A stretch of DNA of 64,000 nucleotides, from positions 3,782,001-3,846,000 of the forward strand of contig NZ_CP030034.1 in assembly GCF_006874625.1 (NCBI RefSeq). Direction: 5' to 3'. Position 1 is the stretch's first letter, and the number at the start of each line of letters is the position of its first letter. The stretch comes from Bdellovibrio sp. NC01 (lineage in GTDB: Bacteria > Bdellovibrionota > Bdellovibrionia > Bdellovibrionales > Bdellovibrionaceae). Below are positions 32,699 through 46,185 of the stretch, piece by piece. The notes below the pieces were generated by a model, which did no database searches, was not told the DNA's origin, and saw only the letters and a list, made by a program, of their open reading frames with translations. A program made the translations under genes and the position numbers.

Positions 32699-35383
32699 GT
32701 GCTTAAGAAAATCATCCTGTTCATAGCTGCTCTTGGCCTTATTGGTATCTTCGGATTATTCCTGGCATATCAGTCTGTTAAGTCAAGCCTTCCACAACTC
32801 ATCACAGTGAAAGATTATGAACCACTTCTTGTAAGTCAGGTTTACGATCGTAACGGTAAAAAGATCGGTGAGTTCTTTCGTGAACGCCGCACTTTAGTTC
32901 CTTACAACAAGATTCCAAAAGATCTTGTGCATGCATTCCTTGCTGCAGAAGACGATCAGTTCTTCCAACATAAAGGGATCAATCCACAAGCTATCTTCCG
33001 TGCTGCTTTAGCCAATCTTCGTGCGGGTCGCTCTGTTCAAGGGGGATCGACGATCACGCAACAGGTTGCTAAAACATTGCTTTTGTCTTCAGAAAAAACT
33101 CTGACGCGTAAATTGCGCGACATCTTGCTGGCACTCGAGATGGAAAAAAACTTAAGCAAAGAAGACATCCTTTATCTTTACTTGAATCAAATTTATTTCG
33201 GTCAAGGTGCGTATGGTGTTGAGCAAGCTGCGCAAACTTACTATCGCAAACCGGTTTCGAAATTAACTTTGTCTGAAATGGCAATCCTTGCGGGTCTTCC
33301 TCAAGCACCAAGTGCTTACAGCCCTGTTCGTAATCCATTGCGCGCGAAAGAACGTCAAACATACGTTCTTCACCGTATGGCCGATGTTGGTTTCATCAAA
33401 AAAGAAGAAGCTGAAAGAGCTGTGAAAGAACCCGTTAAAGTTTACGTTCGTGAAAACTACGAAGAGTACGCTCCGTTCTTCCTAGAAACTGTTCGTCAAT
33501 TACTGGTCGCTCAATTGGGCGAAGACATGGTTTTAGATAAAGGCTTAAAAATCTACACAAGCCTTGATCTGAATAAACAATTGGCTGCGCAAGATTCCGT
33601 GATGGCGGGTCTTAAAGGTTTGGATAAACGCCAAGGTTACCGTGGTCCATTGAAAAACATCGGTGATGGTGATATCGAAAAATTCTTGAAAGAAGATCGT
33701 CAAAAGTTGATTGGCGATTCAACTCCCGAGCGCATCATCTTGCCTGATGGTAAATTCGCAGATCTTGTTCCTAAGAAAGATGAAAAGGCGGCGAAAGAAC
33801 ATCCGCTTCTGCCAAGCTTTATTAAACTCCAAGACTCGGTTCAAGGTGTCGTGACTGCGACTGACGATGCGGCAGGTTTGGTCTATGTCCAATTGCCTGA
33901 TACTCAAGGTTTGATCGATTTCGATACAATGACGTGGGCAAGAAAACCTGACACGGATAAACGCTATGATTTGGCGGTGATCAAAAAGCCTTCGGATGCT
34001 TTGAAAAAAGGCGACGTGATTCTAGTAAAAGTTGTGGGTGATAAATTCTCCCCTTCTCGTGTGATCGCGAATAGCAAAAAGAAAAATGCTCCGGCTTTGA
34101 AACTTCCGGATTTTTCGAAGTATGTTGATTTGGAATTAGATCAAGAACCCATGGTTGAAGGTGCGTTGATTTCATTCGATCAACAAACTGAAGACGTGTT
34201 GGCTCTTGTTGGTGGTACGAACTTTGGAAAAAGTGAATTCAACCGCGCGATCCAAGCTCCTCGCCAAACGGGATCTTCATTTAAGTCGATCGTTTATACT
34301 TCCGCTTTAGATAAAGGCTACAACCCTTCGACTCCGATCATGGATGCTCCACTTGTTTACGAAGAAGGCGGCAATAATTCCGGCGGTGATGAAGAAGGTC
34401 AAGGCGATCCAAAAGTGTGGAAGCCGTCGAATCACTCGAAAAGTTTTGGTGGCGATATCATCGTTCGCAATGCTCTTGCGCAATCGTTGAATATTCCTGC
34501 GGTAAAAGTGATCGAAGACGTTGGCGTACCTTGGGCGACAGAATATGCACGTCGTTTGGGTATTTACAGCCCGCTGAATCCTGACTTCACATTGGTGTTG
34601 GGTTCAAGCTCTGTGACATTGTACGAGATGACGAAAGCGTTTTCAGAACTAGGTCGTCTGGGTAAACGCACTCGTCCGTTGTTGATCCATAAAGTGGAAG
34701 ACAAAAACGGTAAAACTTTGATGGAAACGATTTCTTTGGATGCACGCATCGAAAAAGAAATGAAACCTTATGACGATGATTTTGAAAACCGTCGTAAGGA
34801 GTACTTAGCAATTGCGAAAGATCCAGCAAAGCTTGAAGAGTACAAAAAGAAAGAACCAAAAAAAGCGGCGCTTGCTCAAAACATTTTCTTTGATGATCCA
34901 GAGCAATTGATCAAACCAACGACGGCGTACGTGATGACATCTTTGCTTCGTGGCGTTGTTGAAGATAAAAAAGGTACCGGCGCAAGAGCTCGCGCGTTGG
35001 GGCGTGAAGTCGCAGGTAAAACTGGTACGACGAATAATTATTTCGATGCTTGGTTCATCGGCTACACTCCACAAATCGCAACTGGTGTATGGGTGGGATT
35101 TGACAAAGAGAAAAGTCTAGGTAAAGGCGAGGTTGGTGGTCGCTCTGCGTTGCCAATCTGGGTAGATTACATGAAAGCAGCTCACGACGGACTTCCTCAG
35201 ATGACTTTCCCAGTACCAGACGGTATTGTGTTTGCTAATATCGACAGCGATACAGGCAAGCTTGCGAACGCATCGACAAAAAACATTCTTCGCCAAGCTT
35301 TCGTCGAAGGAACTGAGCCCACTGCCGCTTCTGGCAAATCAGAAGAAGCAACGGACTTCTACAAACAGGATTTATCGGAATGA
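32699..35383 (+). CDS. mrcA: Class A penicillin-binding protein 1A (bifunctional transglycosylase/transpeptidase)
   Basis: 894 residues from GTG at 32699. One N-terminal membrane helix; a GT51 transglycosylase domain (about 60-240) with the catalytic Glu in 'AAEDDQFFQHKGI'; an OB-like insertion (about 380-470); and a transpeptidase domain with SSFK, the SLN triplet in 'ALAQSLNIPAV', and KTGTT. It polymerises and cross-links peptidoglycan at the inner membrane. It overlaps uvrA by ATGA, an odd pairing of wall synthesis with DNA repair. Confidence 0.95.
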   Translation: MLKKIILFIAALGLIGIFGLFLAYQSVKSSLPQLITVKDYEPLLVSQVYDRNGKKIGEFFRERRTLVPYNKIPKDLVHAFLAAEDDQFFQHKGINPQAIFRAALANLRAGRSVQGGSTITQQVAKTLLLSSEKTLTRKLRDILLALEMEKNLSKEDILYLYLNQIYFGQGAYGVEQAAQTYYRKPVSKLTLSEMAILAGLPQAPSAYSPVRNPLRAKERQTYVLHRMADVGFIKKEEAERAVKEPVKVYVRENYEEYAPFFLETVRQLLVAQLGEDMVLDKGLKIYTSLDLNKQLAAQDSVMAGLKGLDKRQGYRGPLKNIGDGDIEKFLKEDRQKLIGDSTPERIILPDGKFADLVPKKDEKAAKEHPLLPSFIKLQDSVQGVVTATDDAAGLVYVQLPDTQGLIDFDTMTWARKPDTDKRYDLAVIKKPSDALKKGDVILVKVVGDKFSPSRVIANSKKKNAPALKLPDFSKYVDLELDQEPMVEGALISFDQQTEDVLALVGGTNFGKSEFNRAIQAPRQTGSSFKSIVYTSALDKGYNPSTPIMDAPLVYEEGGNNSGGDEEGQGDPKVWKPSNHSKSFGGDIIVRNALAQSLNIPAVKVIEDVGVPWATEYARRLGIYSPLNPDFTLVLGSSSVTLYEMTKAFSELGRLGKRTRPLLIHKVEDKNGKTLMETISLDARIEKEMKPYDDDFENRRKEYLAIAKDPAKLEEYKKKEPKKAALAQNIFFDDPEQLIKPTTAYVMTSLLRGVVEDKKGTGARARALGREVAGKTGTTNNYFDAWFIGYTPQIATGVWVGFDKEKSLGKGEVGGRSALPIWVDYMKAAHDGLPQMTFPVPDGIVFANIDSDTGKLANASTKNILRQAFVEGTEPTAASGKSEEATDFYKQDLSE

Positions 35384-38346
35384 AGGATATTCACCTCTGG
35401 GGGGTGAAACAAAACAATCTTAAGAACATCGAGGTCAAAATTCCTGTCGGCAAAATGACAGTGATTTGCGGCCCGAGTGGTTCAGGGAAATCTTCTCTGG
35501 CTTTCGAGACTCTTTTTGCCGAAGGCCAGCGCCGCTTCATCGAAAGTATGTCGAACTATGCACGACAATTTTTGAATAAAGCACCAAAGCCTGATATCGA
35601 AGGTATCAGCAACATTCCGCCTGCTATTTCAATCGAACAAAAAAACACAGTGAAGAGTTCACGATCAACTGTCGGCACAACGACAGAGATCATTGATTAT
35701 CTTCGCTTGTTGTATGAAAAAATCGGCAAGTCCTACTGCCCGACCCATCACTGCCCTACTGAAAAAGAAAGCGTCACTGAAGCCACTGATAAAGTGATCA
35801 AAGGCTTTTCAGGAAAACGTGGCTACATTCTTGTAGAGATCACTGAAGATGGTCGTGTCGCTGAAGGCAAAAAACTTCACTCGCTGTTACTGCAAGATGG
35901 TTACTTGCGTATTTACATTCCTAAAGTGAGTGAACCGGTTAAGAACACAACCAAAGCGACTAAAAAAACTGCCGCCCAAAAGGCCAACAAGAAGACTGGT
36001 AAAAAAGAAATTTTAGAGGCAGAAATTCCAACTCCTGTTGTTCCAGTGAACTCTGGCACAATGGTGACGTTAGAAGAAATGGGCACGATCGTCGAAATCG
36101 GCGATCCTGCTGCGATTAAAAAAGGTCTGCCGAAGGAAAGCTTTTATCTTGTTATCGACCGTATGAGCTTCAATGAAGATGAACGCGGTCGTATCGCTGA
36201 TTCCATGACTCAAGCTTACGAAGCAAGTATCAAGTACAATACGAACTTGATCACTCGCAAAGCCACAGTTTTGACAACTGATGGTCAACGTCTGCAGGTC
36301 AGCGAAGAAGCTTCTTGTCCTATGTGCGGTTATACTCCCCCGCCACTGAGTTCAAAACTTTTCAGTTTTAATTCGCCCATGGGTGCGTGCCCAACTTGTA
36401 AAGGCTTCGGCAATATCTTGGATATCGACGAAGAAAAAGTTGTTCCAAATCCCACAATGAGTTTGGCGCAAGGGGCTTTAAGTCCTTTCTGGATGCCAAG
36501 TGCTGCCCACGAAAAAAAGCAACTTCTTGCTTATTGTAAGAAGGCGAAAATCGATGTGCATACTCCGTGGAAAGATCTTCCTAAAGATCACCGCGAAGCT
36601 ATTTGGAATGGGAACAAAGAATTCTTCGGTGTGCGTGGTCTGTTTGAATATCTAGATCAGATCAAATACAAAATGCACGTGCGCGTATTCATCGCGCGCT
36701 TCAGAAGTCCCTTCGTGTGCCCTACTTGTAAAGGCGCACGTCTGCGCAATGAAGCCAATCACGTTTTAATTTCAAATTCGAACATCAATCAATTGTCGAA
36801 CATGACAATTGAAGACCTTAATAAATTCTTCCAAGAGTTGGAAACAACTCAGTATCAAAAAGAAGTTGCCGGCGAAGTTCTAAAACAAATTCGTGCGCGC
36901 TTAGAGTTTTTGATGCGTGTGGGAGTTCATTACTTGTCACTGGGTCGTGAAACCAGAACTCTTTCTGGTGGGGAATACCAACGTTTGATTCTTGCAAATC
37001 AACTTGGTATGGGCCTGTCACAAGCTCTTTACGTTTTGGATGAACCGACTGTGGGTCTTCATCCGCGCGACAACGATCGATTGATTTCCATCCTTAAAGA
37101 TTTAAAGGAACTTGGAAACACACTTGTTATCGTTGAACACGATCATGATGTGATCAAAGCCAGCGAGCACATCATCGAAATGGGCCCGGGCTCTGGATAT
37201 CTTGGTGGACAAGTCGTTTATTCGGGAACGACGAGTGATTTCTATAAATTTGATAACTCGAATACTGTTCCTTATTTGTTACCGAATAAGGGTGAAAAAG
37301 CTCCTCTTCGTCAAATTCGTCCTGTGGATGTTGAATCCTACAAAGTGAAACTGACGTTGAAAGGGGCAAAGGGACACAATCTTAAAAATCTTGATGTTGT
37401 GTTTCCGTTGAATCGTCTTGTCACAGTTACGGGCGTCAGTGGATCTGGTAAGTCGACTTTGATTTCAAAAACTCTTTATCCAGCACTTGCACGCGCCTTG
37501 GATATTGAATACATGCCTGCACAAGACTATGCAGCTCTTGAAGGTGTTGAGCATGTGAAAAACGTTTTGTTGATCGACCAATCACCGATTGGTAAATCAG
37601 CAAGAAGTTCGCCGATCACTTACTTAAAAGCCTTCGATGCGATTCGTACGATCATGTCGGGCACACCGGAAGCGCAATCGCGTGGTTATACTCCGGGTAC
37701 TTTCAGCTTGAACGTTGATGGTGGTCGTTGCCCTGCTTGTAAAGGCACCGGTTACGAGGAAATCGACATGATGTTCATGGATAACGTCGTTATTCCATGT
37801 GACGTTTGCGACGGCAAAAAATATCGTCCCGAAATTTTAGAGATCCAATATAAAGGCAAAAACGTTCACGAGATTCTTTCAATGACTGTAAGCGAGGCTA
37901 TGAATTTCTTCGTGGCCCATCCTAATATCCGTAAGCCTTTAAGCGTTTTGAAAGAAGTGGGTCTTGATTATTTAACTCTGGGCCAACCTGCCAACTCTTT
38001 GAGCGGTGGTGAATCTCAGCGTCTAAAAATTGCAAAAGAGCTCTCGCAAGTTCAACAAAAAGCGACGCTTTACATCCTGGATGAGCCTACAACAGGGCTG
38101 CATTTCCGCGAGGTAGAGCTGCTTATGAAGGTTCTAAACAAACTCATTGAAACTGGCGGTTCTGTGGTCGTCGTCGAGCACAATCTTGACGTCATTCGTG
38201 GGTCTGATTATGTCATTGACCTGGGTCCTGAAGCAGGTAAAAAAGGCGGAACAATCGTCGCTGAGGGTTCCCCAGAAGAAGTCATGAAGGCTAAGAAAAG
38301 CCTGACGGGACAATACCTGAAGCGTTACGTGGAAAGTCAGAAATAA
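35380..38346 (+). CDS. uvrA: UvrA, excinuclease ABC subunit A
   Basis: 988 residues, somewhat longer than the 940 of E. coli. Two ABC modules: Walker A GPSGSGKSS near the N-terminus and GVSGSGKST near residue 685, with signatures 'LSGGEYQR' and 'LSGGESQR'. Zinc-binding Cys pairs occur in each half (CPMC/CPTC and CPAC/CDVC). Residues about 188-209 are a Lys/Thr/Ala-rich insertion absent from most UvrA. UvrA finds bulky DNA lesions and loads UvrB. It is coupled to the PBP gene before it and the MsbA-like gene after it. Confidence 0.97.
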   Translation: MKDIHLWGVKQNNLKNIEVKIPVGKMTVICGPSGSGKSSLAFETLFAEGQRRFIESMSNYARQFLNKAPKPDIEGISNIPPAISIEQKNTVKSSRSTVGTTTEIIDYLRLLYEKIGKSYCPTHHCPTEKESVTEATDKVIKGFSGKRGYILVEITEDGRVAEGKKLHSLLLQDGYLRIYIPKVSEPVKNTTKATKKTAAQKANKKTGKKEILEAEIPTPVVPVNSGTMVTLEEMGTIVEIGDPAAIKKGLPKESFYLVIDRMSFNEDERGRIADSMTQAYEASIKYNTNLITRKATVLTTDGQRLQVSEEASCPMCGYTPPPLSSKLFSFNSPMGACPTCKGFGNILDIDEEKVVPNPTMSLAQGALSPFWMPSAAHEKKQLLAYCKKAKIDVHTPWKDLPKDHREAIWNGNKEFFGVRGLFEYLDQIKYKMHVRVFIARFRSPFVCPTCKGARLRNEANHVLISNSNINQLSNMTIEDLNKFFQELETTQYQKEVAGEVLKQIRARLEFLMRVGVHYLSLGRETRTLSGGEYQRLILANQLGMGLSQALYVLDEPTVGLHPRDNDRLISILKDLKELGNTLVIVEHDHDVIKASEHIIEMGPGSGYLGGQVVYSGTTSDFYKFDNSNTVPYLLPNKGEKAPLRQIRPVDVESYKVKLTLKGAKGHNLKNLDVVFPLNRLVTVTGVSGSGKSTLISKTLYPALARALDIEYMPAQDYAALEGVEHVKNVLLIDQSPIGKSARSSPITYLKAFDAIRTIMSGTPEAQSRGYTPGTFSLNVDGGRCPACKGTGYEEIDMMFMDNVVIPCDVCDGKKYRPEILEIQYKGKNVHEILSMTVSEAMNFFVAHPNIRKPLSVLKEVGLDYLTLGQPANSLSGGESQRLKIAKELSQVQQKATLYILDEPTTGLHFREVELLMKVLNKLIETGGSVVVVEHNLDVIRGSDYVIDLGPEAGKKGGTIVAEGSPEEVMKAKKSLTGQYLKRYVESQK

Positions 38347-40061
38347 TGGTAGAAATTAAAAGAATTCTTAGCGAAGCAAAACCACACAAGAAACTTATTC
38401 TCATCGTGGCCATCGCTGGGATCATTCACGCAGCAGCGTCTGCACGAATGGCATTGTTGATTAAACCTTTGTTCGACAATTTGGCTAAGGCTGAGTTCGA
38501 TCAAGTTGTAGCTTTGGTTCCTTGGGCTATGTTGCTTGCGATCATCGCGGGTATCGCTCGTTACTTCCATATCTACTTGATGAACTTCGTTGCAGAAAGC
38601 ATCACTCAAAGTCTTCGTCAAAAGTTGCAACAGAAATTCATGAAATTGAATTTGTCGTTCCATAACACTTATCAAACGGGCTCTGGCGGTTTGATTAGCT
38701 TGATCTTGAATGACATCGGCGCGATCCAAGATGGTCTGCGTATGGTTGCGGATATTTTCCTGCATCCGTTGTTATTCATCTTCTTGCTGGGTAACTTATT
38801 GATCATCGACTGGAAGCTGACTCTGGCTACTTTAGTGTTGGTACCAATCATTGGAACTTTCTTGAAATCAACATCACGCAGTCTTCGTAAGTACACACCG
38901 ATTGGTCAGGCGTACTTGCAAAAGATGACGTCGACGATCAAAGAAAGTATCGACGGCGTTCGTATCATTCAGTCCTTCAATCTTGAAAAAGTAATGGCTG
39001 ACCGCTTGGTGAATGAATCAAAAGAGTATTTGGAAACTCGTAAAATCGTTCACGCGCGTACTGAAATCATGGGCCCAGTTACAGAGATCCTGGCTTCTGG
39101 TATCGTCATGGCGGTTCTTCTTTATGAAACTTGGGAAGTAAAACAAGGTCGTGCAACTCCAGGTACGTTCGTTGGTTTCATTGCATCTCTTTTGATGTTG
39201 AATGCTCCGATTAAAAAATTCCAAGAGTCTTACGTGCGCATTCAATCCGTTGTGGCCGTTGCTAAACGTGTATTCCATGTTTTGGATGATCCCAACGAAG
39301 TTCCATTAAGCACAATCAACAAACCATTCCCGAAAGACTGGAAAAAGATCACGTACAAAAATGTTTCGTTCTCTTACGGTCGCGAGATGATTTTGAAAAA
39401 CGTTGATCTTGAAATCAAACGTGGCGAAATGGTTGCTCTTGTGGGCGCCAGCGGAAGCGGTAAATCGACAATCGTAAACTTGCTTGAACGCTTTTTTGAT
39501 GCGACTTCAGGCGAAATCTTATTCGACGACGTGAACATTCGCGATATCGAATTGGGCGATCTTCGCCGTAATATCGCGCTTGTGACTCAAGACGTGTTCT
39601 TATTCAGCGATACGATTGAAAACAATATCGGCGCTGGTAACTTGTCTCGTGATAAAAAAGACGTTCCAAAAATGGCGACTCTTGCAAACGCTAACGACTT
39701 TATCATGAAGATGCCTCAAGGCTACCAAAGCCGTGTGGGTGATCGCGGTAACTTGTTGTCTGGTGGTGAAAAACAGCGTGTGAGTATTGCTCGTGCGATG
39801 TTTAAGGATGCTCCGCTATTGATCCTAGATGAAGCGACAAGCGCTTTGGATACGGCAAGCGAGATCGAAGTACAAAAAGGTTTGGATCATTTGATGGAAG
39901 GTCGTACAGCGCTTGTGATTGCGCATCGTCTTTCTACGATCCAAAAAGCCGATAAGATCGTTGTCCTTAAAGGTGGCGAAATCGTAGAGATCGGTAGCCA
40001 TCACGAGCTACTGACTAACGAAGGCGAATATCACCGTTTCCATACTCTTCAACATAGCTAG
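38346..40061 (+). CDS. msbA: ABC exporter of the MsbA type (probable lipid A-core flippase)
   Basis: 571 residues with six membrane helices in the N-terminal half and one ABC ATPase domain: Walker A GASGSGKST, signature 'LSGGEKQR' and Walker B 'LLILDEATSALD'. This half-exporter works as a dimer. The overall look fits MsbA, which flips lipid A across the inner membrane, but other lipid or peptide exporters share this layout. It overlaps the uvrA stop by one base (TAATG), so it is co-translated. Confidence 0.85.
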   Translation: MVEIKRILSEAKPHKKLILIVAIAGIIHAAASARMALLIKPLFDNLAKAEFDQVVALVPWAMLLAIIAGIARYFHIYLMNFVAESITQSLRQKLQQKFMKLNLSFHNTYQTGSGGLISLILNDIGAIQDGLRMVADIFLHPLLFIFLLGNLLIIDWKLTLATLVLVPIIGTFLKSTSRSLRKYTPIGQAYLQKMTSTIKESIDGVRIIQSFNLEKVMADRLVNESKEYLETRKIVHARTEIMGPVTEILASGIVMAVLLYETWEVKQGRATPGTFVGFIASLLMLNAPIKKFQESYVRIQSVVAVAKRVFHVLDDPNEVPLSTINKPFPKDWKKITYKNVSFSYGREMILKNVDLEIKRGEMVALVGASGSGKSTIVNLLERFFDATSGEILFDDVNIRDIELGDLRRNIALVTQDVFLFSDTIENNIGAGNLSRDKKDVPKMATLANANDFIMKMPQGYQSRVGDRGNLLSGGEKQRVSIARAMFKDAPLLILDEATSALDTASEIEVQKGLDHLMEGRTALVIAHRLSTIQKADKIVVLKGGEIVEIGSHHELLTNEGEYHRFHTLQHS

Positions 40062-40238: not shown

Positions 40239-41795
40239 ATGATTAATTGGGATGAGTTTGAACATATACATGTGATCAAGAAACTCAAACATATCCTTAG
40301 CGCTTGGTGGAACATCGACGTTGTTTTCACTGACGAGCGTGGAATGCTTAAAGGCTATGACTCTGATAAAGCGGGCTTCAACAATCCAGCTATCGCTGCT
40401 CTTGTAAATAAAGAAGCAGGTCAAGCAAGCATCGCAGAACTAGTTGGTAAATCACTAGACGATCTTCGCACTTCACAAAATCGCTACACTCTACGCAAGT
40501 GGGACATGGTTGGTTTTGACGTTGGTGTATTCCCAATCATGATCGAAAATGACTGTGTAGGTACAGTTGTCGCAATGGGTTTCTTCCGCGACGCTAACTT
40601 CACTTCTCGTTTGCAAGAGATCCGCGATCGTTTGGCAGCCTTCGGCATGTCAGGCGAAGTGATCGAAAAATGCTTGGGCAAATTGAAATTCCTTGATGAT
40701 CACGAACGCACTCACTTCGCAGAACTTTGCGAACTAGTTGCACAAGAGATCGTGACTCTTCACCTAGAGATTTCTTCTCGTGAAGATCGCATCAAAGAAT
40801 TGAATAAAGAATTGGGCAACAGATTTAAATACGACAACATGATCGGTAAATCTAAACCAATGCAATCATTGTACGCTTTGCTTGATAAAATCAAAGGTGC
40901 AGATTCAACGGTTCTAGTACAAGGTGAAAACGGTACTGGTAAAGAGTTGATCGCGAAATCGATCCACTACAATTCAAACCGTAAAGACAAACCTTTCATC
41001 ATCCAAAACTGTTCTGCATTCAATGACAACTTGTTAGAATCAGAATTGTTCGGTCACATCAAAGGTTCATTTACTGGCGCTTTGAAAGACAAAAAAGGTC
41101 TTTTCGAAATGGCAGATAAAGGTACATTCTTCCTGGATGAGATCGGTGATACGTCTCCACAAATGCAAGTTAAGCTTCTTCGCGTATTGCAAGAAGGTAC
41201 TTTCATGCCAGTGGGCGCAACTGAATCTAGAAAAGTTGACGTTCGTATCGTTGCGGCGACAAACAGAAACTTAAAAGAAATGGTTGAGCAAGGTACATTC
41301 CGTGAAGACTTGTACTATCGCTTAAACGTTATCAACATCCGCGTTCCACCTCTTCGTGAAAGAAAAGAAGACATCCCGTTCTTGACGGATTTCTTCTTGA
41401 ACAAAATCCACGAACAACAAGGTGGTCCAAAACGTCAATTGACGAAACGTGCTTTGGAGAAGTTGTACGACTATCCATGGCCAGGTAACGTGCGTGAATT
41501 GCAAAATGAAATCGAAAGACTTTGCGTTCTTTCTGGCGACGAAACAAAACTAATGGCAGAACTTCTTTCTCCAAAAGTTTTGGAAGCTGGCGAAAAAAAC
41601 AAAGTTCAAGGCTCTCGTTTGCAAGGTAAGTTGAAAGATGCTTTGGAAGATCTAGAACGCGAAATGATCCGCGAAGGTCTTCGTCGCACAGGTTGGAATA
41701 AATCTAAACTTGCGAAAGAGCTTGGCATCAGCCGCGCCGGTCTTATCATGAAAGTTGAAAAATACGGTCTTGATAAACGTAAAATCGCTCGCTAG
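40239..41795 (+). CDS. Sigma-54-dependent transcriptional activator
   Basis: 518 residues. Residues 1 to about 175 form a sensory domain, possibly PocR- or GAF-like. A linker helix leads to the AAA+ domain with Walker A GENGTGKE (229-236), the sigma-54 contact loop GSFTGA (276-281, Ser instead of the usual Ala), Walker B with Asp300-Glu301 and an arginine-finger region 'FREDLYYRLN'. The C-terminus (about 475-510) is a Fis-type helix-turn-helix ('GWNKSKLAKELGISRAGL'). There is no receiver domain, so it responds to a ligand or partner. It is likely to drive nearby sigma-54 promoters. Confidence 0.95.
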   Translation: MINWDEFEHIHVIKKLKHILSAWWNIDVVFTDERGMLKGYDSDKAGFNNPAIAALVNKEAGQASIAELVGKSLDDLRTSQNRYTLRKWDMVGFDVGVFPIMIENDCVGTVVAMGFFRDANFTSRLQEIRDRLAAFGMSGEVIEKCLGKLKFLDDHERTHFAELCELVAQEIVTLHLEISSREDRIKELNKELGNRFKYDNMIGKSKPMQSLYALLDKIKGADSTVLVQGENGTGKELIAKSIHYNSNRKDKPFIIQNCSAFNDNLLESELFGHIKGSFTGALKDKKGLFEMADKGTFFLDEIGDTSPQMQVKLLRVLQEGTFMPVGATESRKVDVRIVAATNRNLKEMVEQGTFREDLYYRLNVINIRVPPLRERKEDIPFLTDFFLNKIHEQQGGPKRQLTKRALEKLYDYPWPGNVRELQNEIERLCVLSGDETKLMAELLSPKVLEAGEKNKVQGSRLQGKLKDALEDLEREMIREGLRRTGWNKSKLAKELGISRAGLIMKVEKYGLDKRKIAR

Positions 41796-41822: not shown

Positions 41823-41858
41823 AAAAGAGGGGCTGCACAACAGTCCCTCTTTTCTTTT
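41823..41858 (+). terminator. Strong terminator after the sigma-54 activator
   Basis: AAAAGAGGGGCTG pairs with CAGTCCCTCTTTT (13 bp, one G-T pair) over CACAA, followed by CTTTTT. Confidence 0.92.
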
Positions 41859-42014
41859 TGGTAGCCCGTGCCCCTCTGTGTCCCTGCCCTAAAGAAATTA
41901 CCTTATCGAACTAAAATTGATGAGTTTTAGACCCCTCTTTAAATGCTACTTTTGTAGACATGCTGTTAGCTTAAGTACTGAATATCTAATAGCAATTTCC
42001 GAACTGCAATCTGT

Positions 42015-42030
42015 TGGCACTGCCTTTGTA
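42015..42030 (+). promoter_or_regulatory. Candidate sigma-54 promoter
   Basis: TGGCAC (42015-42020) and TTGTA (42026-42030) have the exact GG-N10-G spacing of sigma-54 promoters. The -12 element reads GT where the consensus is GC. Transcription would begin near 42041, just before the AAGGGG ribosome site of the gene at 42065. Confidence 0.4.
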
Positions 42031-42064: not shown

Positions 42065-42934
42065 ATGCAGAACTCAACATTGGACAGCTCATTCGTAAAT
42101 CGCTTGAAGCAAATTTTAGCTAGCCGCTATGGGAAGGGTTTGCAGATTCGTCAATTGATGGATCTGTCGGAGCTTCAATCAGATGAAGATGCATTCACGC
42201 GGGGGCGTGACTTGCACGTTCCAATCAAGGTCAACGGCTCGTATTTGGGGACGGCCGTTGTTCCTTCTGCTGATGACCTTAATCAAGAAAAACGCCAAGG
42301 GGTCACACAATTAATTCGCATGGTTTTAGAACCTGCGATGTACAAATGGTACCTTGATCAACGTGAATCCAATTTGATGGAGATTTCTAAAGCAAATTTG
42401 AATTTAGAAAACGTGCATTTGTTCGCAGAAGAAATGCCTTCCATCGATGAGCTTTTAAAAGAAGACAACGATACAGCCCAAAGTCGAGGTTTGGATCTTA
42501 TTTCCCACCTTATTCACTTGGAAGGTCGTTCAGAAACTACTAATAAAAAAGTAGCTTTGCAGCTGCATGAAATGACAGGCCGTTGGGCTTTCGTTCCATT
42601 CAACGACATTAAAGGTCAACTGCACTCTTCATTCGATATTTGCAAACTTGGTGCAATGACAATCTTTATCGAAAACGTTGAGTCTTTGAATGCCGCTGAG
42701 CAAGAGCTTTTGATGGATTATCTTTCTGAAGATCATCTTTCAGACGAGCCATTGGTTATCACAAGCACGAATCTTAAAGCGGACGAGTTACAACAAGTTG
42801 AAGCCTTAGGTGCAAACTTACGTGACGAGCTTTCTGTGAACTGTTTCGAGGTAGACCGTGCGCCTTTATCGACACAAGGCCTGAAGGAAGTTCTTGAATT
42901 GTTCTTCATGAAAGATGCCCCGGAAAACGCATAA
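42065..42934 (+). CDS. Degenerate sigma-54-activator-like protein without ATP-binding motifs or DNA-binding domain
   Basis: 289 residues. The first 130 residues resemble a small sensory (GAF/PAS-like) domain. From residue 196, 'GAMTIFIENVESL', 'DEPLVITSTNL' and 'LRDELSVNCFEVDRAPL' line up in order with 'GTFFLDEIGDTSP', 'VRIVAATNRNL' and 'FREDLYYRLNVINIRVPPL' of the activator encoded just upstream. Walker A, the GAFTGA loop and the helix-turn-helix are absent, and the Walker B acidic pair is EN. I infer a decayed AAA+ paralogue that may regulate by binding. It lies 39 bases before the AmgK-like start, in the same operon. Confidence 0.7.
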   Translation: MQNSTLDSSFVNRLKQILASRYGKGLQIRQLMDLSELQSDEDAFTRGRDLHVPIKVNGSYLGTAVVPSADDLNQEKRQGVTQLIRMVLEPAMYKWYLDQRESNLMEISKANLNLENVHLFAEEMPSIDELLKEDNDTAQSRGLDLISHLIHLEGRSETTNKKVALQLHEMTGRWAFVPFNDIKGQLHSSFDICKLGAMTIFIENVESLNAAEQELLMDYLSEDHLSDEPLVITSTNLKADELQQVEALGANLRDELSVNCFEVDRAPLSTQGLKEVLELFFMKDAPENA

Positions 42935-42973
42935 CTCTTGATAATCTCATGAGTGTCTGTGAGAATTTTTCTT

Positions 42974-43993
42974 ATGGTCACTCATGATGAATACTTAGTT
43001 CCATTTTTAAATCGTTCTATTAACTCGGACGCATACAAAGTCTTCTCTCTAGCCGGGGATGCTTCCAATCGCCGCTACTACCGCGTGGTTCTTGACCAAC
43101 ATTCTTGGGTCTTGATGCGCTGGGAACCTTTTGATCCGAATAACTATCCATTCTTGAGTGTCCTAAATCACTTCGCTAAAAATGGCGTGCACGTTCCGCA
43201 TGTCGTTGCAATGTCACCTGAAGAAGGCTTGGTCCTTCTTGAAGATCTTGGTGATTTAACGTTAGAACGCAAATTTTGGGAAAGCCAAACGCAAGAAAAC
43301 TCGATGGAGTTTTATAAAATGGCCGTTGATGAAATCGTTAAGATCCATCACCCTGCCACTTTGGATAAATCAGAATGCACGGCTTTCAAAATCCAATTCG
43401 ATACTGAAAAATTCTTGTGGGAAATGAACTACGGCAAAGACAATCTTCTTTCCGGCGTTTTAAAATTCCCGTTCAACGACAAAACCAATAAAGAAATTTC
43501 TGACATCTTCTTGGATGTGTGCACGAAACTTCATAACGAGCCAAAGCGCATTGCTCATCGCGATTATCATTCTCGCAACTTGATGATCAAATTGGATCAG
43601 ATGACTGTCATCGATTTCCAAGATGCACGTTTGGGTCCGATTCAGTATGACCTTGTCAGCTTGATGCGCGATTCTTACGTCGATATGAACGATAGTATGG
43701 CGAAAACTTTGATCGATTATTACCTGGATCAATCAAAGCAGTATTTGCCGAAAGATTTTTCGCGTGAACACTTCGATCGCATCTATGAATTGCAATCTAT
43801 TCAACGATGCTTCAAAGCGTGCGGCAGTTTCGCCAGCTTCTATCACTTACGCCAAGATAAACGTTACCTGAAATATCTTTCAGGGACTCTTCGTCGCGTA
43901 ATGAAAGCCATCAACGAATTCCCAGAATACAAAATGTTCGCGGATGTGTTGATTGACTCTGGCGCTCTTGAAAGAAAGTACGAAACTCTATGA
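42974..43993 (+). CDS. amgK: AmgK-like sugar kinase (N-acetylmuramate/N-acetylglucosamine 1-kinase)
   Basis: 339 residues from ATG at 42974 (an in-frame GTG at 42953 is possible). The aminoglycoside-phosphotransferase fold is shown by an early 'GDASNRRYYRV', the catalytic loop H195-R-D197-Y-H and the metal site D214-F-Q-D217. The 'GDAS(N/F)RRY' start and the coupling by ATGA to a MurU-like gene are typical of AmgK. That enzyme makes MurNAc-1-phosphate from free MurNAc, the first step of the recycling route that bypasses de novo, fosfomycin-sensitive synthesis. Cytoplasmic. Confidence 0.85.
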   Translation: MVTHDEYLVPFLNRSINSDAYKVFSLAGDASNRRYYRVVLDQHSWVLMRWEPFDPNNYPFLSVLNHFAKNGVHVPHVVAMSPEEGLVLLEDLGDLTLERKFWESQTQENSMEFYKMAVDEIVKIHHPATLDKSECTAFKIQFDTEKFLWEMNYGKDNLLSGVLKFPFNDKTNKEISDIFLDVCTKLHNEPKRIAHRDYHSRNLMIKLDQMTVIDFQDARLGPIQYDLVSLMRDSYVDMNDSMAKTLIDYYLDQSKQYLPKDFSREHFDRIYELQSIQRCFKACGSFASFYHLRQDKRYLKYLSGTLRRVMKAINEFPEYKMFADVLIDSGALERKYETL

Positions 43994-44988
43994 ATCTGAT
44001 GCTGCTTGCAGCGGGTGAAGGCACGCGCCTTCGCCCTTACACTCATCAATTGCCGAAGCCTGCTATTCCATTTTTGAATTTGCCACTGGCTTCACACTCT
44101 TTGAGTTTTTTAAACGACATTGCAATTGATAAGCTTGTTGTTAATACGTTTCATCTTCCTGAAAAAATCCACTGTCTTTTCCACAAAATTCCCCATGGCG
44201 CCAAGGAACTTATTTTTTCTGACGAGGTCGGCGAAATTCTTGGTAATGGCGGTGGCTTAGGCAAAGCTCGTCAGCACTTTCACGGTGGCGGCGACTTTAT
44301 CATGATGAATTCGGATGAAGTGATCCTGCCGAAAGATGCTGATGTCCTTAAAAAAGCTATCGCCCAGCACAAAGCTTCAGGTGCACTAGCCACTTTGATG
44401 GTGATGGATCATCCAGGCGTGGGTACTCAATTCGGTGGTGTGTGGGTCGATTCGAAGGAAAATAAAGTTCGTGGTTTTGGTAAGACTGCGATCCCCAATA
44501 CAGATAAAGCTTGGCACTTCATCGGTGTACAAATTCTTTCAGAACGTATTTTCCAATATATTCCGTCAACGGGCGCTTCTAACATTCTGTATGACGGCGT
44601 GGCTGCTGGAATCGCACAAGGTGAGCTTGTACAGGTATGTCCTTTTGAATGCTCCTGGTTTGAAACTGGCAATATCAAAGACTTCTTAGAGGCTTCAGAA
44701 AAGTGTTTGGGATATTTGATGTCTTCTGAACCATCTTCTGAAAAAGCGGCTTTGGAACGTGCGTTTCAACGTTATGCAAATGGCAAGATGATCACCCAAG
44801 ATTTTGCGGGAGCTCACCTGCATTTTTCTAATGATGCACGCATCGATAATAATTCTAAATTTGAAGGCTTCGTTTGTTTCGCGGAAGGCAGTCGCTTGCC
44901 GAAGGAATGTAAGCTTAAGAATGTGATTGTCGGTGAAGGTGTGTCTGTGGCCCCAGGAACTGAGGCCGAAAACACTTTGCTGCTTTAA
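43990..44988 (+). CDS. murU: MurU-like sugar-1-phosphate nucleotidyltransferase
   Basis: 332 residues. The N-terminal nucleotidyltransferase signature is 'AAGEGTRLRPYTHQLPKP' (residues 7-24), and 'GNGGGLGKA' and 'FIMMNSDEV' follow. MurU converts MurNAc-1-phosphate to UDP-MurNAc. This protein is about 100 residues longer than Pseudomonas MurU, with a C-terminal segment rich in short strands ('LKNVIVGEGVSVAPGT') like a left-handed beta helix, so the exact sugar should be held open. The context with AmgK and a NamZ-like gene favours MurNAc salvage. It meets the converging gene with no gap. Confidence 0.8.
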   Translation: MNLMLLAAGEGTRLRPYTHQLPKPAIPFLNLPLASHSLSFLNDIAIDKLVVNTFHLPEKIHCLFHKIPHGAKELIFSDEVGEILGNGGGLGKARQHFHGGGDFIMMNSDEVILPKDADVLKKAIAQHKASGALATLMVMDHPGVGTQFGGVWVDSKENKVRGFGKTAIPNTDKAWHFIGVQILSERIFQYIPSTGASNILYDGVAAGIAQGELVQVCPFECSWFETGNIKDFLEASEKCLGYLMSSEPSSEKAALERAFQRYANGKMITQDFAGAHLHFSNDARIDNNSKFEGFVCFAEGSRLPKECKLKNVIVGEGVSVAPGTEAENTLLL

Positions 44989-46185
44989 TTATTTATAAAG
45001 CAGATATTTCTTACGTTCTTTATCCCAAGACTTTTCATCTTTAAGCAAAGCTTTGTCTAAATCGGCAGGCTTTGCATTTTTGTTTTCGATCCAATCTTTT
45101 AATTCTGGTCCACCGTTAATCACGTTGAACGCCAATTTATCTTTCACGTACTCATAAGCAAAATCGCGATAGATTGGATAGTTCGGGTAAAGCTCTCTGA
45201 TAACTTTTAACATCAACGCCACTAAACGGAACGGTTTAAACTGTTCGTGTTTGTAAGCGATACTGTCCGTGTGGAATTGGAAACCGTGGCACAATTTTCC
45301 AACGTGCTTGTGGAAAGTCGGTTCAAAGAAACATTCACGCAACACAACGCCTTTGTGCCATTGCGGAGCTTTCTTTTTCATCTCTTTCAAAACTTTTGCG
45401 AAGTCGATATCGGAAGCGCCAATGATTTCTAGCGCACGAGTCGTACCGCGACCTTCTGAAAGAGTTGTGCCTTCAATCAATACTGTGCCTGGATATGCTC
45501 TGGCCATATTTAGCGACGCTGCATTTGGTGAAGGATTCACCCACGGGCGCTTCATATCCCAGCCATAGCCAGGAGCTTTATTCGGAGCATAGCCCTTCAT
45601 TTTCACAACTTCTAAATCAAGATTTAATTTGTAGTGATCTTTGAAGTACAGCGCTAGCTCGCCCACAGTTAAACCATGGCGCATTGGAATTGGTGCGGCA
45701 CCAACAAATGACTCCCAACCTTCACGCATACGGAAGCCTTCGATCACGCGGCCCGCTGGATTGGGTCTATCAAGAATGATGATTTTTTTATTTAACTTTG
45801 CGCATTCTTCCATCACGTAAAGCAATGTTGTGATGAAAGTGTAGATACGGCAGCCAAGGTCTTGCAAATCGAAAAGAACGACGTCGAAGTGGGACATCAT
45901 CTCTGCAGTCGGTCTGCGAACTTCACCATACAAACTGAAAATTGGAATTTGATGAACAGGATCAACGAAGTTTGGGCTTTCGATCATATTGTCTTGTTTG
46001 TCGCCACGAACACCATGTTGTGGACCGAAGGCGCATGACAACTTGATTTTTTTTGAAAGTAAATCCAGGCTGTGTTGCAAGTTTTCATCGACACTCGCTG
46101 GATGACAAATCAATCCAACTTTTTTGCCTTTAAGTGCTTTTAATTTTTTGCTGTCGCTTAGTAAAACTTCAAGACCCAACTTCAT
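44989..46185 (-). CDS. namZ: DUF1343 protein, NamZ-like exo-beta-N-acetylmuramidase
   Basis: 398 residues of the DUF1343 family: 'KVGLICHPASVD', 'FGPQHGVRGD', 'VVLFDLQDLGCRIYTFITT' and 'IILDRPNPAGR' appear in the usual order. Characterised members (NamZ) remove terminal MurNAc from glycan fragments. Here the motif near residue 55 is P-Q56-H-G where many members have PEHG; I recall a subfamily with Gln, so activity should not be assumed. It has no signal peptide, so it is probably cytoplasmic. A ribosome site AAAGGAA precedes the ATG. It converges on the MurU-like gene. Confidence 0.85.
   Translation of the reverse strand: MKLGLEVLLSDSKKLKALKGKKVGLICHPASVDENLQHSLDLLSKKIKLSCAFGPQHGVRGDKQDNMIESPNFVDPVHQIPIFSLYGEVRRPTAEMMSHFDVVLFDLQDLGCRIYTFITTLLYVMEECAKLNKKIIILDRPNPAGRVIEGFRMREGWESFVGAAPIPMRHGLTVGELALYFKDHYKLNLDLEVVKMKGYAPNKAPGYGWDMKRPWVNPSPNAASLNMARAYPGTVLIEGTTLSEGRGTTRALEIIGASDIDFAKVLKEMKKKAPQWHKGVVLRECFFEPTFHKHVGKLCHGFQFHTDSIAYKHEQFKPFRLVALMLKVIRELYPNYPIYRDFAYEYVKDKLAFNVINGGPELKDWIENKNAKPADLDKALLKDEKSWDKERKKYLLYK

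Follow-up and report, generated by a model that had tools for sequence, protein, structure and literature searches.

Reviews of the activators of sigma-54 describe proteins that lack the sensor, the DNA-binding domain or both, the central ATPase domain being common to all of them (PMC7175178, PMC3162934). FleT of Rhodobacter (Cereibacter) sphaeroides resembles an activator but has no DNA-binding domain; it is produced from an operon that is switched on by sigma-54 and FleQ (PMC7277832), and it hetero-oligomerises with FleQ (PMC7277832, PMC9542535). Hetero-oligomers of related sigma-54 activators have also been described for HrpR/HrpS and for the VnfA paralogs (PMC9542535). Restraint in trans is represented by PspA, a negative regulator of the sigma-54 activator PspF (PMC3791423).

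The window analysed here, a stretch of 64,000 nucleotides from the 3.98 Mb genome of Bdellovibrio sp. NC01, contains an open reading frame at 42065-42934, whose protein is hereafter called Q, downstream of a sigma-54 activator encoded at 40239-41795, hereafter s54act. The named relatives matched by the Q protein belong to Bdellovibrio, strain kdesi of B. bacteriovorus among them. Bdellovibrio is a predator that takes apart the wall of its prey. The local gene order is a UvrA-like protein, an ABC exporter, s54act, Q, amgK, murU and a convergent namZ, with the start of murU overlapping the stop of amgK. The enzymes AmgK and MurU, respectively an anomeric kinase and a uridylyltransferase for MurNAc, are known from cell-wall recycling, which makes the label of a salvage operon, given in the initial annotation, right. 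Both score well against their NCBIfam models, though short of the equivalog thresholds. The features of the locus are as follows.

40239-41795, plus strand: s54act, sigma-54 activator with a weakly PocR-like sensor, an AAA+ domain with GENGTGKE and GSFTGA, and HTH_8
41823-41853, plus strand: intrinsic terminator between s54act and Q, with a 13-bp stem and a T run
41888-41902, plus strand: CCTAAAGAAATTACC, the core of an enhancer-like block conserved in the genus, some 127 bp before the -24 element
42015-42030, plus strand: sigma-54 -24/-12 promoter pattern, TGGCACTGCCTTTGTA; the pattern is kept before Q across the order
42065-42934, plus strand: Q, putative pseudo-activator protein of 289 aa
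42065-42394, plus strand: residues 1-110 of Q, predicted compact GAF-like domain with a long helix at its end
42503-42859, plus strand: residues 147-265 of Q, predicted degenerate AAA+ alpha/beta core
42524-42547, plus strand: former Walker A site, residues 154-161 of Q, GRSETTNK (GENGTGKE in s54act)
42659-42682, plus strand: former Walker B site, residues 199-206 of Q, TIFIENVE (TFFLDEIG in s54act)
42953-43993, plus strand: amgK, MurNAc/GlcNAc anomeric kinase (NF045759, E 1e-40, under the equivalog cut-off)
43990-44988, plus strand: murU, MurNAc-1-phosphate uridylyltransferase (NF045761, E 6e-21, under the equivalog cut-off)
44989-46185, minus strand: namZ, exo-beta-N-acetylmuramidase, convergent

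The UvrA-like protein, which carries a Lys/Thr/Ala-rich insert, and the ABC exporter (35380-40061) are found before s54act in many of the order's genomes; this neighbourhood is conserved and has no obvious tie to wall-sugar recycling. At the other end, namZ lies beside murU in some genomes only and in either orientation. The s54act protein shows 72-97% identity across the order, and the dS of its gene is mostly 0.5-1.0 against mostly 1.4-2.7 for its neighbours in the same genome pairs, which suggests strong codon constraint.

The relationship of Q to the AAA+ domain of sigma-54 activators, proposed in the initial annotation, is borne out by both profile searches and structure prediction. With hhalign, an order-wide Q profile aligned to s54act over 148 columns (E 1.2e-6, probability 91%), and the C-terminal half of Q aligned to the s54act AAA+ domain with an E of 7.5e-8 and a probability of 94.5%, against 0.1-0.2% for the crossed domain pairs that served as a control; a profile of Bdellovibrionaceae members alone gave no significant match to s54act (probability 3%). 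In Pfam, Q matches PF14532 (Sigma54_activ_2) over residues 158-263 at an E of 3e-4, with 21.4 bits against a gathering cut-off of 25 bits, and of 51 relatives, 28 hit this family as well (E up to 1), the best of them at 2e-7. Searches of the PDB returned only chance matches with the single Q sequence and nothing significant with the Q family profile. The AlphaFold model of Q presents the strand and helix order of an AAA+ domain at a mean pLDDT of 60, most of the AAA part lying at about 70-80. Residues 104-265 match the AAA+ domain of FleQ in VIA-align (Z 10.8, rmsd 3.2, 114 residues), the best matches also including NtrX, DmpR, PspF and other AAA+ proteins at a Z of about 10; with Foldseek alone the best E is 2e-3, DmpR being the top match. 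Profile and model place in Q, at about residues 147-265 and behind a GAF-like domain, an AAA+ core that is like that of sigma-54 activators but degenerate. The landmarks had originally been placed over residues 196-289; their AAA+ order is indeed kept, but the similarity begins at about residue 147.

The motifs were surveyed in a 50-member Q alignment with s54act, and patterns were counted over 109 members. The losses first noticed in Q itself, namely those of Walker A, GAFTGA and the DNA-binding domain together with a changed Walker B acid pair, are all confirmed. The position of the P-loop lysine is replaced in the alignment, a plain GxxxxGK pattern occurs in 1 of the 109 members, and GAFTGA occurs in none of them. 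The positions of the Walker B pair and of both arginine fingers are variable across the 50 sequences, the FRxDLxYRL-type motif is found in 0 of 109 members, and Q has no lid. HTH_8 has no match in Q in Pfam, nor is it among the families common to its relatives, and PF04012 (PspA/IM30) was not matched in Pfam scans of Q or the relatives. Helix 1, after the lost P-loop, keeps A164 and H168 in Q, the alanine being kept in 46 and the histidine in 41 of the 50 aligned sequences, and many members carry an IHxx[ST]xR-like signature that s54act has too. These kept positions indicate that the relatedness takes in all of the alpha/beta core, starting at about residue 147.

With regard to the N-terminal half, this domain modelled alone reaches a pLDDT of 79, better than the whole-protein model. 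It matches mostly GAF domains, with a Z of up to 8.8 (8.6 for the roadblock protein MglB) and an E of only about 1e-2 by Foldseek, and its length of about 110 residues falls short of that of a canonical GAF domain. The models thus give moderate support to a compact GAF-like fold. Comparison with the sensor half of s54act gave a probability of only 16-19% over 28-34 columns, so the N-terminal half is not established as a copy of that sensor. The initial annotation had spoken of an intact sensory half, a description that does not suit a fold that is GAF-like, short and not significantly similar to the s54act sensor.

The gene next after Q, on the same strand, is amgK in 98 of 101 loci, at a median gap of 38 bp; of the other 3, one runs into a contig end, one has a Q-like ORF in reverse orientation, and in one genome amgK is found on a different contig. 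The earlier placement of Q at the head of a salvage operon, here one for MurNAc, is supported. The s54act gene lies at most 600 bp upstream of Q in 64 of the 101 loci. The strong terminator at 41823-41853 sets Q apart from s54act, and Q, judged by this terminator, the enhancer-like block and the sigma-54 pattern, is in a transcription unit of its own. The -24/-12 pattern is not above chance within the window alone (1 against 0.57 expected). Across genomes, GGCA[CT]N5TTG lies upstream of 75 of 96 Q genes, a count that includes related genomes and is not one of independent cases, against a shuffled mean of 1.0 and a maximum of 4; the corresponding counts are 0 of 78 for s54act, 0 of 96 for amgK and 1 of 90 for murU. 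The CCTAAAGAAATTACC block is conserved in the genus, sits where an enhancer would be and has a single exact copy in the genome. A search for a regulon gave 10 matches to it at no more than one mismatch against 25 for a control pattern, so no regulon is claimed. This candidate enhancer would presumably be bound by s54act. The terminator, the enhancer-like block and the promoter pattern make it very probable that Q-amgK-murU is a sigma-54-driven operon, transcribed from this promoter with s54act as its most likely, presumed activator.

The reading favoured here, which is possible and held tentatively, is that Q acts as a feedback partner of s54act, either as an anti-activator or as a subunit of hetero-oligomers. 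In this mechanism s54act would switch on Q-amgK-murU via the sigma-54 promoter, with Q as the first product. The AAA-like half of Q, which appears to be without the parts for ATP binding and hydrolysis, sigma-54 contact and DNA binding, would enter the s54act ring or cap it and thereby damp or gate it, and the GAF-like half would supply dimerisation or a signal. The starting point is what can be read from the sequence, namely the fold relationship, the missing catalytic motifs, the conservation and selection, the operon structure and the promoter pattern; from there we infer that s54act drives the promoter, that Q binds s54act and that the effect is negative, as well as any ligand. In favour of feedback on s54act are the fold and the homology between the s54act AAA+ domain and the C-terminal half of Q, the loss of the catalytic and sigma-54-contact motifs among the 109 members and of the DNA-binding domain, the sigma-54 site at most Q genes with its unique enhancer-like block, and the precedents of PspA-PspF and FleT. 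Furthermore, an s54act ortholog is present in every genome that has Q, even when the two genes are distant, the exceptions being fragmentary or incomplete assemblies such as G086, G087 and G130. RpoN is kept in nearly all these genomes, so its loss is uninformative for Q. A search at E 1e-190 had suggested that Q persists where s54act is lost; a looser search found diverged s54act orthologs in the genomes concerned (G095, G096 and G123-G126), and that suggestion was dropped.

A further argument for feedback on s54act comes from a GAFTGA-less paralog of s54act in another class (family f16, 301-312 aa).

Locus L160, 5860-6798, minus strand: tandem GAFTGA-less s54act paralog
Locus L161, 3023-3928, minus strand: tandem GAFTGA-less s54act paralog

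This paralog comes immediately after s54act, with a sigma-54-type site in front of it, and precedes DUF1385-prfA (plus prmC in L160). It has a P-loop and a lid, and its HTH_8 is almost identical to that of s54act. It is, on sequence criteria, the second instance of a sigma-54-driven, GAFTGA-less relative placed after an activator gene. The arrangement is possibly the ancestral state of Q, which would then descend from a paralog of this type. The f16 paralog is also a natural candidate competitor at s54act enhancers. The role of anti-activator or ligand sensor suggested in the initial annotation is plausible for Q, and it gains circumstantial support from the sigma-54 pattern before Q and from the f16 paralog.

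Co-occurrence brings in a second partner. Throughout the class, Q was found in no genome without amgK (Q/amgK tally 125/0/7/10, Fisher p 3e-11, with G095 and G124 left out and kinship ignored). In loci where the cluster lies apart from s54act (L035, L059, L071, L123 and L138), Q stays with amgK-murU, and in the reduced genomes G096, G123, G125 and G126 a Q that is short or divergent precedes a divergent amgK, with no strict sigma-54 site. Moreover, s54act persists without Q and without amgK in G030 and G113, so that Q is tied more strictly to amgK than to s54act. All of this counts against feedback on s54act and would suit a Q that regulates AmgK (or MurU) allosterically or as a non-catalytic partner, in which the fold of an activator has been co-opted for a purpose other than transcription, as would the near-constant position of amgK directly after Q. 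Such a role is the main rival to feedback on s54act, though somewhat unlikely. AmgK appears to be independent of Q, since amgK occurs without Q in G040, G092 and G120 and, together with s54act, in classes outside Bdellovibrionia, and G102-G105 have amgK and neither s54act nor Q. Besides, a feedback regulator encoded in the operon predicts identical linkage. From the co-occurrence, Q needs both amgK and s54act, and linkage alone points to neither of them as the target.

The reach of the AAA-like half is put in question by variants of Q. Families f10 and f11 have, at the usual place of Q, GAF-only versions of 134-151 aa, behind a Q-type sigma-54 promoter in 5 of 6 examined; those of 134-143 aa are the following.

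Locus L170, 4331-4762: GAF-only Q
Locus L172, 4899-5330: GAF-only Q
Locus L173, 1236-1646: GAF-only Q
Locus L174, 4644-5048: GAF-only Q

These four end in an NVIPF-like tail, which is also seen in the linker of many full-length members. Given the GAF-only proteins, the AAA half is not an essential effector in f10 and f11, a point against feedback on s54act. Q could be seen as a signalling adaptor for some other protein, one that works through its GAF-like half and linker only, with the AAA-like half as a lineage-specific scaffold. The GAF-only versions, the almost AAA-only version in G096 and the linker motif common to GAF-only and many full-length members would fit an adaptor. This explanation is distinctly improbable, as both halves are kept in most of the order, the AAA half with strongly conserved positions, and the strict form of the linker motif, although enriched, occurs in a minority of members (23 of 109 against 2.5 expected). 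The Q profile also matches both halves of a further set of proteins, of family f12, with an altered GAFTGA (e.g. FSSKG) and an unusual P-loop.

Locus L190, 5504-6991: GAF-AAA-HTH activator-like protein
Locus L191, 4234-5721: GAF-AAA-HTH activator-like protein
Locus L192, 4686-6176: GAF-AAA-HTH activator-like protein
Locus L193, 4392-5891: GAF-AAA-HTH activator-like protein

These were rejected as Q, being full-length GAF-AAA-HTH proteins with a degenerate GAFTGA that lie beside other genes.

Q is present in 60 of the 66 genomes of the family and in at least 118 of the 141 in the order; its open frames are mostly 250-400 aa long. Comparison of the window with close relatives within the genus gave a dN/dS of 0.07-0.1, with dS partly saturated. 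Q evolves faster than amgK and several times faster than s54act, and somewhat more slowly than murU, and its identity to most members outside the family is 15-24%. Such fast divergence would be unusual in a protein that binds a nearly invariant surface and is a further point against feedback on s54act. A pseudogene or untranslated relic of a duplicated activator, which the many lost motifs and the low identities might recall, has next to no chance of being correct and is contradicted by the full-length open frames across the order and, for the genus, by the purifying selection, so that "decayed", the word used at first for Q, is not apt. These comparisons mark Q as a pseudoenzyme of sigma-54-activator descent that is conserved and under purifying selection.

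If Q does gate s54act, pseudoenzymes would be added to the control of sigma-54, and the AmgK-MurU route of Bdellovibrio would have a regulatory handle in Q, which may tune the timing with which the recycling genes are switched on. It is a more doubtful proposal that Q founds a family of pseudo-activators, dead GAF-AAA proteins that would gate the activator of their own operon by joining its ring and so control the re-use of cell-wall sugars in predatory bacteria, perhaps sensing a cell-wall metabolite via the GAF-like half. A conserved family of sigma-54 activators with a dead AAA+ engine was not found in the open-access literature, nor was a paper that treats Bdellovibrio together with AmgK.

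As in the bacterial sigma-54 activators (PF00158/PF14532), Q has an AAA+ alpha/beta core with the alanine and histidine of helix 1 and the IHxx[ST]xR-like signature, and a GAF-like N-terminal domain; unlike them, it is without the P-loop, GAFTGA, the Walker B pair, the arginine fingers, the lid and the DNA-binding domain. The f16 paralog shares with Q the place directly downstream of s54act, the sigma-54-type site and a GAFTGA region deleted to a similar length, but in it the P-loop, lid and HTH_8 are retained, a GAF domain is lacking and the gene that follows is not amgK. FleT is likewise activator-like, without a DNA-binding domain and from an operon with a sigma-54 promoter; it is, however, an activator that keeps its AAA+ domain and is without a sensory domain (PMC7175178, PMC3162934), whereas in Q every AAA+ motif is altered and the GAF-like half is present. 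The subunits of HrpR/HrpS and the VnfA paralogs are activators in their own right, which Q, by its motifs, cannot be. The PspA-PspF pair offers a working precedent for the proposed restraint of s54act in trans; PspA is helical and unrelated in sequence, whereas Q resembles the activator itself.
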